Below, in pieces: positions 8,955 through 41,545 of a stretch of 41,931 nucleotides of DNA (position 1 is the first letter of the stretch; each line of letters opens with the position of its first letter). Origin of the DNA: Dictyobacter arantiisoli (GTDB lineage: Bacteria > Chloroflexota > Ktedonobacteria > Ktedonobacterales > Ktedonobacteraceae). The notes beneath the pieces were generated by a model. It searched no databases. It saw nothing but the letters and a program-made list of their open reading frames with translations, and was not told the origin of the DNA. The stretch spans positions 1-41,931 of the forward strand of contig NZ_BIXY01000062.1 in the NCBI RefSeq assembly GCF_008326305.1, read 5' to 3'. The position numbers and the translations under genes are program-made.

Positions 8955-9045
8955 AACACTGGAATTGAGCCGGATGAAGGGAAACCTTCATGTCCGGTTT
9001 TGAAGCCGAGCAGAGGAGGTAACTCCTTTGCTTAGGTCAACAATC
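8850..9045 (+). mobile_element. Group II intron 3' remnant: maturase tail plus domains V and VI
   Basis: A plus-strand frame contains NKCLLHRHCHDDRH, similar to the extreme C-terminus of group II intron reverse transcriptases. About 40 nt later, 8967-9001 folds as a canonical domain V: GAGCCGG pairs with CCGGTTT, then TGAAGG/CCTTCA capped by a GAAA tetraloop, with the AGC catalytic triad in place. It is followed at about 9009-9030 by a domain VI-like hairpin (GCAGAGGAG, GTAA loop, CTCCTTTGC). The 5' intron domains and most of the reverse transcriptase are missing, so the element cannot splice or move by itself. Confidence 0.75.
8967..9001 (+). ncRNA. Group II intron domain V
   Basis: A 35-nt hairpin with lower stem GAGCCGG/CCGGTTT, a short bulge, upper stem TGAAGG/CCTTCA and a GAAA tetraloop. 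These are the diagnostic features of the catalytic core of group II introns. It lies directly downstream of the maturase C-terminus, as in intact introns. Confidence 0.75.
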
Positions 9046-18905: not shown

Positions 18906-18977
18906 GCGGGAGTGGCTCAGTGGTAGAGCACTTCCTTGCCAAGGAAGATGTCGCGGGTTCGAATCCCGTCTCCCGCT
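18906..18977 (+). tRNA. tRNA-Gly (GCC)
   Basis: A full cloverleaf can be drawn. The acceptor is GCGGGAG/CTCCCGC, the D stem GCTC/GAGC, the anticodon loop TTGCCAA with anticodon GCC, and the T arm GCGGGTTCGAATCCCGT, with discriminator T. CCA is not encoded. It is transcribed with the following tRNA-Cys from the promoter at 18831. Confidence 0.97.
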
Positions 18978-18991
18978 CCCCTTTTTTTTTC

Positions 18992-19062
18992 GGCGACGTA
19001 GCCAAGTGGTAAGGCACGGCTCTGCAAAAGCTGCACCAGCGGTTCGAGTCCGCTCGTCGCCT
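18992..19062 (+). tRNA. tRNA-Cys (GCA)
   Basis: The acceptor is GGCGACG/CGTCGCC, the anticodon loop CTGCAAA with anticodon GCA, and the T arm GCGGTTCGAGTCCGC, with discriminator T as required for Cys. CCA is not encoded. It lies 14 nt after tRNA-Gly and directly before a strong terminator. Confidence 0.97.
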
Positions 19063-36433: not shown

Positions 36434-36490
36434 TTCTAACACTTTTCTAACACTTTTCCTATGTGGTTCTAACAATCATTGTGGCATACT
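36434..36490 (+). promoter_or_regulatory. PhoB/PhoP-like operator array and activator-dependent promoter
   Basis: Heptamers TTCTAAC (36434), TTCTAAC (36445), TTCCTAT (36456) and TTCTAAC (36467) follow one another with exactly 4-bp spacers (ACTT, ACTT, GTGG), an 11-bp period. This is the layout of OmpR/PhoB-family binding boxes. The last heptamer overlaps the -35 position of a promoter whose -10 is CATACT (36485-36490) with extended TG (36482-36483). That is where such activators normally stand in for a missing -35. It would drive the Cys-rich gene and groESL. Confidence 0.55.
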
Positions 36491-36660
36491 GCTTTACAGA
36501 GAAAAGAATAACGTTGCATTTTAAATCTACATGCAGACATTTCGTCTGTCTAATGCCTGAACGTGAAGAGTTGCAATGACGCAGAAAACGCCAAACATCT
36601 ACTTTAGAGGGAATTATTTCCTGGGTGGTGGTTCAGCGCAACTGCAACAAAGGTATCACA

Positions 36661-36951
36661 ATGAAGAGACAAGAGGATTTCGAGCACGTCTATAATAAAG
36701 ATGATGAGCATAAACAGAGGAAACAAAATAAGGCGATTTCTGCCAATAGTCAGAAGCCGCCTCGTTGCGCGAACTGTGATATCGATATCCTTTGGCCTCC
36801 TACCATGGTAGCTGAGACGACCTATTGCTGTACCGGATGTGCGGCAGGTGGGCCGTGTTGTTGTGACTATTCACAGTATCGTTCGGTGAACATCTCTGGT
36901 GTGATCCATTATGGTTCAGACGAAGAGGCACTGAATACGTCTTCTGATTGA
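36661..36951 (+). CDS. Small Cys-rich metal-binding-type protein upstream of groES
   Basis: 96 residues from the ATG at 36661 (AAAGG upstream; an earlier start at 36625 lacks one). The first ~35 residues are polar and charged. Then follow CANCD, a 20-residue gap, and YCCTGCAAGGPCCCDYSQY: nine Cys in about 33 residues, in a zinc-ribbon or metallothionein-like arrangement. No enzymatic motif and no membrane segment are seen. The gene ends 30 nt before groES without a terminator, so it is likely cotranscribed with the chaperonins. A role in metal binding or redox sensing is inferred from the Cys spacing. I do not recognise a named family. Confidence 0.7.
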   Translation: MKRQEDFEHVYNKDDEHKQRKQNKAISANSQKPPRCANCDIDILWPPTMVAETTYCCTGCAAGGPCCCDYSQYRSVNISGVIHYGSDEEALNTSSD

Positions 36952-36981: not shown

Positions 36982-37272
36982 GTGGCTAAGATTCGTCCTA
37001 TTGGTGACCGTGTGGTTGTAAAGCCTGCGGCCAAAGAAGAAGTAACAAAAAGCGGTATCGTTATCCCTGACACAGCCAAAGAGAAACCTCAAGAAGGGGT
37101 TGTGATTGCGGTTGGTAATGGTCGTTTGCTGGATAATGGTGAGCGCGCTGCAATAGAGATCCATGAGGGTGATCGTGTGCTGTTCGCTAAATATGGCGGC
37201 ACCGAGTTCAAACTGGACAACGAAGAGTACCTGGTACTCAAAGAGAACGATATTCTCGCAATCGTTGGTTAA
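36982..37272 (+). CDS. groES: Co-chaperonin GroES
   Basis: A 96-residue 10-kDa chaperonin cap, with [12 protein letters not shown] at the start, the mobile loop [30 protein letters not shown], and the end [14 protein letters not shown]. It starts with GTG at 36982 after GAAAGGAAG. It caps GroEL rings during ATP-driven folding. groEL follows after 79 bp. No CIRCE inverted repeat precedes the gene. Confidence 0.97.
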
Positions 37273-37342: not shown

Positions 37343-38977
<1,635 letters not shown>

Positions 38978-39017: not shown

Positions 39018-39054
39018 AACAGTCCTCCCTGAAATCTGGGGAGGACTGTTTTTT
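39018..39054 (+). terminator. Rho-independent terminator of the groESL operon
   Basis: A 12-bp perfect stem (AACAGTCCTCCC with GGGAGGACTGTT), a 9-nt loop and a run of T. Confidence 0.95.
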
Positions 39055-39071
39055 ATTGCATGTTTGCTTGT

Positions 39072-40156: not shown

Positions 40157-41545
40157 TTATTGCCAGATTTGGATTGTGCCATCCGTTAACCCGACAATCA
40201 GTTGTTGCTCGCTAAAGTTGAGCGCGCTGACCTGCCATGGATGATAAAACTTCTGGATAATTTGACCGGTTGTGATCGACCACAGATCGACGACCCCCTC
40301 GCTTACTTCACTGTCCTCGCGCGCTACCGCCAGCCATTGGGCGTCTGGTGAGATTGCTATACGGGCGCTTCCACCCATCGTGCCGCTGGTGATTTCGCTA
40401 TAGGTGCCTGTAGTGGTATCACACAGGCGAATGTTTGAGCCAGCATAGACAAAGGCCAGCAGGGAGGCATCCAGGGAGGCTGCATATGGTGGGGCGCAAT
40501 CTTCGCACCGCCCCATCAAAATAGAGGCTTCAATGTGTGGCGTTTTATGGCCCAGTGTTTTTTTTGGGGTGATATTCCAGCGCCGTATAATCGCCATCTG
40601 CTCAGGCTCATGTGGTATCTGGGCACAGGATAAGGTGACAAGCGTATGGGCATCCTGTGATAAAGCACGCATACGGATAGCCCAGAAACTGCGCCGATCA
40701 GTATTTTCTTCGGGGCAAACGATGGCATCAGAGACCTTGGCCGTTGGCTGTTCCATCCCATGATGAATGATATCCGTGCTCCGCACTCCCCAGGAGCGTG
40801 GAGTGCGTGTATCTTCATTAAGATGGGGTAAGGCCATGGAAACGCTACGCTTCCCATCTGGTTGCACATGCAGGCTCATATCCAGCGAATAATGGGCTGA
40901 TACGGCGCGTGCAGTTAATGGATAGCTCCAGAGTCGTGTGCCTGAATAAGCATCCCATACATGCAATCCCAGGCGGTTCCAACCTGATAGAAGTGAGCCG
41001 GCCTGTGAGAAGCGCAGTTCGCGCAACGCTTCAACCGTCAACGCGGGATCAACCGCGAAATTGGTCGTTTCGGTGACTTTTCCATCATGATGGACCTGCC
41101 AGAGCGTTCCCTGACCATCGAGCGAGCCAGCAGCAATCTGTACACCATGTACTGTGGGACGACTGTGCAGGGCTGAAGGGACCACCAGTTTTGTTTGGAT
41201 GATCGGCCCGGCGCGAAATGGTCCCCGGGTGCTGAATGTATTCAGCCCCGAAAATTCCACGTCGTTTGGATCATCGGGCACATGCGGGCGTGAATGTGGA
41301 CGTACCAGAGGTTGGCGCATATCTATAATGCCGCTTAAGATTGCATCATAGCTTTCGCGTTTTTCCTGATCCCCCAGGACCGCGTAGGCGCGATTAATCT
41401 GTTTCATTTCCAGAGCCCCTTCGGGACCAGCCAGATCGGGATGAAAACGGCGTGCTAATTGGCGATAGGCTCTTTTGACGGTATCAAGGTCCGCATTGGG
41501 CGGAACCCCTAAGATAGCATAATAGTTCTCTGGTCTATCTATCAT
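40157..41545 (-). CDS. J-domain (DnaJ-like) protein with C-terminal WD40 repeats
   Basis: 462 residues. The J-domain (residues 1-68) has NYYAILGVPPNADLDTVKRA, the HPD triad (35-37) needed to stimulate DnaK, and INRAYAVLGDQEKRESYD. The rest is a set of WD40-like blades, clearest near GLHVWDAYSGTRLW and at the end (GVVDLWSITTGQII and GLTDGTIQIWQ), forming a probable beta-propeller for binding client proteins. There is no Gly/Phe or zinc-finger region of true DnaJ. No ribosome binding site precedes the ATG, and a -10-like TGATACGAT ends 3 nt before it, so the message may be leaderless. Confidence 0.85.
   Translation of the reverse strand: MIDRPENYYAILGVPPNADLDTVKRAYRQLARRFHPDLAGPEGALEMKQINRAYAVLGDQEKRESYDAILSGIIDMRQPLVRPHSRPHVPDDPNDVEFSGLNTFSTRGPFRAGPIIQTKLVVPSALHSRPTVHGVQIAAGSLDGQGTLWQVHHDGKVTETTNFAVDPALTVEALRELRFSQAGSLLSGWNRLGLHVWDAYSGTRLWSYPLTARAVSAHYSLDMSLHVQPDGKRSVSMALPHLNEDTRTPRSWGVRSTDIIHHGMEQPTAKVSDAIVCPEENTDRRSFWAIRMRALSQDAHTLVTLSCAQIPHEPEQMAIIRRWNITPKKTLGHKTPHIEASILMGRCEDCAPPYAASLDASLLAFVYAGSNIRLCDTTTGTYSEITSGTMGGSARIAISPDAQWLAVAREDSEVSEGVVDLWSITTGQIIQKFYHPWQVSALNFSEQQLIVGLTDGTIQIWQ

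Follow-up and report, generated by a model that had tools for sequence, protein, structure and literature searches.

The tandem heptamers upstream of the groESL operon of Dictyobacter arantiisoli are part of a conserved control element that stands before protein-repair genes across the Chloroflexota. Very probably, the array is the site of an OmpR/PhoB-family activator of a chaperone regulon in this phylum, with a KdpE-like regulator and its GAF/PAS kinase as the likely reader. The features of the promoter and operon, within the window (the whole stretch of DNA analysed, 41,931 nucleotides), are as follows.

36434..36440, forward strand: box 1, TTCTAAC (type A), read from the sequence and conserved in 27 relatives
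36445..36451, forward strand: box 2, TTCTAAC (type A), likewise read from the sequence and conserved in 27 relatives
36456..36462, forward strand: box 3, TTCCTAT (type B variant), a B-type box kept at this place, TCCTAY in most relatives
36467..36473, forward strand: box 4, TTCTAAC (type A), with 11 bp from its end to the -10, a spacing constant in groESL, hsp20 and htpG promoters
36485..36490, forward strand: -10 hexamer CATACT with TGG before it (extended -10), invariant or close to it in relatives
36491..36660, forward strand: putative untranslated operon leader, placed from the promoter position
36661..36951, forward strand: opening gene of the operon, encoding a 96-aa Cys-rich protein, with an alternative GTG start at 36625
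36982..37272, forward strand: groES (Pfam Cpn10; NCBIfam)
37352..38977, forward strand: groEL (Pfam Cpn60_TCP1; TIGR02348 GroEL)
39020..39056, forward strand: terminator-like hairpin CAGTCCTCCC..GGGAGGACTG and then a T run, the operon end, recognized by eye in the sequence

Across 36434-36473 the array reads TTCTAAC-N4-TTCTAAC-N4-TTCCTAT-N4-TTCTAAC with a period of exactly 11 bp; the boxes reported at this period before the chaperonin operon by the initial annotation are present, the third being a conserved variant of the heptamer rather than an exact repeat. A random heptamer passes the box threshold with a P of about 0.01, so that four boxes at fixed spacing would arise by chance at ∼1e-8 per position. 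A search of the 7.2-Mb genome for TTCTAACN4TTCTAAC gave a single match, and the reversed control pattern gave none. With a 17-bp spacer, the -35 slot falls at 36462-36467 (TGTGGT), where there is no TTGACA-like hexamer. The spacer between boxes 3 and 4 covers this slot, and box 4 lies just downstream of it. Direct repeats of 6 to 7 bp at 11-bp spacing, at a fixed distance from a -10 with a poor or absent -35, constitute the geometry of an OmpR/PhoB-type site, as had been proposed, and with its 11-bp distance to the -10 the array occupies the position of an activator in place of the -35.

Conservation in relatives, on which the initial annotation had staked its reading, was found throughout: in each of the 27 relatives sampled that have the Cys-rich-groES-groEL operon, the array lies upstream, at equal distance to the -10. 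Flanking sequences vary among them, and the box bases, box order and -10 are constant. Box types run A A B A or, in several genera, A A B A B A. Within each box, C3 and A6 hardly ever change, in contrast to the variable spacers. A degenerate four-box pattern gave 34 matches in the 257-Gb GTDB collection, 32 of which are Ktedonobacterales-type arrays that precede the chaperonin operon wherever the contig is long enough to tell. The other two matches lie on one Anaerolineales contig and one Bacteroidetes contig; the latter match (L167) is a TCTAAC tandem repeat and was rejected as unrelated. On the Anaerolineales contig (L142:5256-5294), a four-box array with a -10 lies about 350 bp before a membrane-GAF-PAS-cyclase gene, a non-chaperone. 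On a contig labelled Proteobacteria (L153, Centralia_MAG_377), a six-box array accompanies a groESL locus of the Ktedonobacterales type; this is probably a mislabelled MAG.

Homologs of the Cys-rich protein were found in 28 of 41 genomes (host included), and groES and groEL follow wherever this was checked. The protein has no family match in Pfam or NCBIfam; it has the motif CxNCDI..TYCCxGCAxGGPCxCDYS, is conserved in Ktedonobacterales and also occurs in other Chloroflexota (L224 and L233). It is possibly a metal- or redox-sensing co-chaperone. Convergent with groEL, positions 40157-41545 encode a DnaJ domain fused to a WD40-like beta-propeller, and J-domain genes are also found near the candidate regulator (see below) in other families. 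Elsewhere, the window contains a match to an Rfam group II intron domain (8965-9041; RF00029, 49 bits) and a pair of adjacent tRNA genes (18906-19062; Rfam RF00005).

The array is not restricted to groESL. A sequence-only profile built from 19 sites (R1) was run over 31 genomes, and matches up to E = 0.01 were considered. Besides groESL, these comprise about 20 hsp20 promoters, second groESL copies (L065, L068 and L097) and htpG (L063, L069 and L099); a few reach contig ends or resemble chance (L087). The host genome has its second array, of six boxes, at an hsp20 promoter. Alignment of promoters places the last heptamer 11 bp from the -10 in groESL, hsp20 and htpG alike, the distance being still 11 bp in hsp20 and htpG promoters, which mostly lack the TGn. 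Counted upstream from the -10 end, the number of boxes is four or six, and the array ends are sharp; occasional arrays appear shorter only through a degenerate second-last box. This parity would fit dimers on 22-bp units.

Two further arrangements accompany these promoters. Weak R1 matches (E of 0.1-0.5; L089, L091-L093, L096 and L082) are reverse-oriented two-box sites, GTTAGA-N5-GTTAGA; the hsp20 or hsp20-dnaK promoters downstream of them are of the TTGACA-N17-CATAAT type and represent a different promoter class on the same boxes. Directly upstream of the array in Ktedonobacterales hsp20 promoters (L066-L090; host copy L098) lies a palindrome, TTGATAG-N5-CTATCAA, with a CTTGA-N11-TCAAG geometry that we take to recall the HspR box; the resemblance suggests a putative second regulator of hsp20.

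Over 301 Chloroflexota genomes, R1 gave matches in five genomes outside Ktedonobacterales; in four of these the match is followed by hsp20, dnaK or htpG, and in the fifth it reaches a contig end. When 400 genomes were scanned with a broader profile (R2; 35 training sites, five of them from these out-of-order genomes), 98 had arrays, including 52 outside Ktedonobacterales. When 31 out-of-order R2 matches were fetched (E up to about 1e-3, with near-duplicates within genera omitted), chaperone-operon genes followed 27 of the arrays: 26 stand before groES/groEL, hsp20 or dnaK and one before a Cys-rich protein homolog at a contig end. The other four fall at a membrane-protein gene, in an unclear region, in a kinase-regulator/zinc-ribbon gap and at a contig end. 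At L221, the array lies between a kinase-regulator operon and genes for zinc-ribbon and FmdB/Ruc-like proteins, the last of which is of interest, as Ruc of M. tuberculosis is a redox chaperone (PMC7448276).

The initial annotation had suggested scanning the genome for other genes behind the same array, with phosphate genes as a pointer to PhoP. Genome and phylum scans return almost exclusively chaperone genes, with hsp20, htpG, dnaK and groESL sharing the array, and no phosphate genes; a phosphate role of the PhoB/PhoP kind is not sustained, and a phosphate regulon was rejected. The promoter had also been called unusual. Response-regulator control of a chaperonin operon survives from that description, but a one-off promoter does not, since the array belongs to a phylum-wide chaperone regulon.

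The predicted control of chaperones by a response regulator is well supported by sequence comparison, and the likely reader of the array is one orthologous pair of a GAF/PAS kinase and an OmpR-type (KdpE-like) response regulator. For the chaperonin operon, where such control had been postulated, the support comes from the adjacency, co-occurrence and conserved contact residues of this pair. In the host, it is encoded on contig C3 at about 137976-140398 (L238:3477-5899), where the gene for a 563-aa PAS-HisKA-HATPase kinase overlaps that for a 244-aa response regulator (L238:5165-5899); the candidate kinase is of the form (GAF-)PAS-HisKA-HATPase, and the regulator carries Trans_reg_C. These host genes are not adjacent to chaperones. 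Array neighbourhoods were searched for OmpR-type domains only, and five OmpR-type regulators were found near arrays. Four of these (in G341, G201, G316 and G262) form one ortholog group, with 60-74% mutual identity and 62-66% identity to the host regulator (L183/L238), versus at most 48% for the 22 host paralogs. In G341 the array separates groESL from a divergent kinase-regulator operon. It is flanked in G316 by hsp20 and the kinase-regulator operon, in G201 by the kinase-regulator operon on one side and a zinc-ribbon gene on the other, and in G262 by the regulator gene and hsp20. An OmpR regulator about 1 kb from hsp20 in G119 (L117/L202) was rejected and counted as chance, because it does not belong to the candidate group.

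When the ortholog loci were taken as the starting point, 40 being picked across families, 13 had a chaperone or J-domain gene no more than about 4 kb away (hsp20 in eight cases), versus none in 90 kb around paralogs, a small control with windows narrower than those of the orthologs. The array is located in the shared gap by profile matches at L278, L304 and L313 and by eye at L284. Outside Ktedonobacterales, the ortholog is present in 48 of 52 array-bearing genomes versus 63 of 301 array-less genomes (Fisher p of 1.4e-23, ignoring the relatedness of genomes), the 63 being array-less at the sensitivity of the scan. No ortholog was found in the array-bearing genomes G050, G242, G284 and G384 outside the order or in drafts G005 and G007 in the family; in a full-sensitivity search of the ortholog-lacking genomes, it was still missing in G005, G007, G242, G284 and G050. 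The ortholog gene of G001 is split by a frameshift.

The closest solved structures to the candidate are KdpE-type (best PDB matches, 6lgq/4kny; E of about 5e-56). KdpE binds TTTATA-N5-TTTACA and requires R193, R200 and T215, and its Y191, I194, H198 and T217 correspond to the base-contacting positions of PhoB (PMC3264566). The candidate retains Y191, R193, R200 and T215 and differs by I194L, H198Y and T217R. In the alignment of 69 orthologs, KdpE positions 191, 193, 194 and 198 are occupied by Y (67/69), R (68/69), L (69/69) and Y (69/69), and the Y/R/L/Y set is found in none of the host paralogs. Contact residues are near-invariant in the 69 orthologs, and the reading surface is therefore conserved phylum-wide, as is the motif. 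The candidate resembles KdpE in the 11-bp direct-repeat layout and in the KdpE-specific R193, but it has L/Y/R at 194/198/217, arrays of four or six boxes, chaperones rather than kdpFABC as targets, and a GAF/PAS kinase that is not KdpD-like.

Other explanations of the boxes deserve consideration. Their reader could be a different protein with an OmpR-like domain, i.e., one of the 22 other host OmpR regulators or a SARP-type protein, with the kinase-regulator pair a chance neighbour or merely co-regulated. The host genome encodes 23 OmpR-type regulators, SARP-type proteins also read 11-bp-spaced heptamers, at sites of similar geometry, and the candidate's own genes in Ktedonobacterales have no autoregulatory array (none at the host's 27 OmpR-domain loci or the order's 31 candidate loci). 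We nevertheless consider another reader unlikely, given that four of five array-adjacent OmpR regulators, from different families, are the same ortholog, that array and ortholog co-occur in 48 of 52 genomes and that the candidate's contact residues share the phylum-wide conservation of the motif. A lower probability still attaches to the boxes being a repression operator, or marking the polymerase of an alternative sigma factor, instead of an activator site. The -10 resembles the housekeeping type, a four- or six-box array is not a sigma-factor element, and there is no -35 consensus; the extended -10 TGn of groESL promoters could allow activator-independent transcription, but most hsp20 and htpG promoters lack it and yet retain the 11-bp distance between array and -10. 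Phased DNA curvature that aids the promoter without any specific reader can be practically discounted: a period near one helical turn and the T-rich start of each box are compatible with it, but not the near invariance of C3 and A6 against variable spacers, the maintained order of A and B boxes or the confinement of profile matches largely to chaperone promoters.

CIRCE control of this groESL promoter was also rejected, as TTAGCACTC-N9-GAGTGCTAA has no match across the whole window at up to 3 mismatches. The earlier statement that there is no CIRCE is true of the promoter and the window but not of the host genome, where CIRCE elements lie before a solo groEL with a GGM tail (L198) and, in multiple copies, before two ClpB/ClpC-like clp genes (L199 and L200). 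HrcA itself is encoded in the host genome, and 39 of the 41 relatives have it. The HrcA system, like the array regulon, controls groEL and other chaperones; unlike the host promoters of solo groEL and the two clp genes, the array promoter has no CIRCE.

Under the preferred reading, with an OmpR/PhoB-family activator on the array, protein stress would activate the kinase, and the regulator, once phosphorylated, would occupy the array as two or three tandem dimers on the four or six heptamers. The bound regulator would contact RNA polymerase where the promoter has a good -10 but no -35, and the filled array would switch on groESL, hsp20, htpG and dnaK, while HrcA/CIRCE may act as a parallel circuit for solo groEL and clp. 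This model predicts that the candidate regulator is phosphorylated, binds and activates, and that heat or misfolding is the signal; we infer activation and the heat signal from promoter layout and target genes, and heat induction of the regulon from gene identity. More tentatively, and at somewhat less than even probability, the cytosolic heat-shock response of much of the Chloroflexota could have a phosphorelay, rather than a sigma factor or repressor, as its master activator, one that reads two or three tandem dimer sites and whose kinase may be restrained by nearby-encoded chaperones or J-domain proteins and freed once misfolded protein titrates them.

Bacterial heat-shock control in textbooks relies on sigma-32, HrcA, HspR or CtsR. 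CpxR and CssR are OmpR-family envelope-stress regulators of protein-quality genes, but they serve the envelope, whereas the targets here are the cytosolic groESL, hsp20, dnaK and htpG. In cyanobacteria, Hik34/Hik2-Rre1 is a two-component activator of groESL, dnaK2 and htpG (PMC13421787). Two-component control of chaperone genes is common to both systems, but Rre1 is of the NarL/LuxR type with a proposed motif of GTNCGGK, in contrast to the 11-bp-spaced TTCTAAC heptamers and OmpR/KdpE-type candidate described here; a regulator of the Rre1 type was rejected on the array consensus and the DNA-binding fold (Trans_reg_C). For M. tuberculosis PhoP, the spacer between the 7-bp motifs must be exactly 4 bp, and tetra-repeats are the better bound sites (PMC4832192). 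The array shares with PhoB/PhoP pho boxes the 7-bp direct repeats, 4-bp spacers and position upstream of the -10, but differs in its heptamer and in having no phosphate genes among its targets. In Myxococcus xanthus, the response regulator MXAN_4468 affects groESL transcription together with HrcA (PMC9040617), but that protein is CheY-like and acts negatively via HrcA, unlike a winged-helix activator candidate with its own array. A text search for TTCTAAC and Chloroflexi heat-shock control found no prior description in the open-licence literature, nor was an OmpR-type activator with multi-dimer arrays found there as a phylum-wide chaperone regulator. This suggests a known regulator class in a heat-shock role that the open-licence papers searched do not describe.

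Much of the Chloroflexota appears to run groESL, hsp20, dnaK and htpG by an OmpR-type two-component system. The array is unusually legible, with four or six heptamers 11 bp from the -10, and the site and a candidate regulator are both named; the proposal is therefore testable in cultured strains of Dictyobacter, Ktedonobacter or Thermogemmatispora. The motif also provides a means of predicting stress genes in many genomes of uncultured Chloroflexota.
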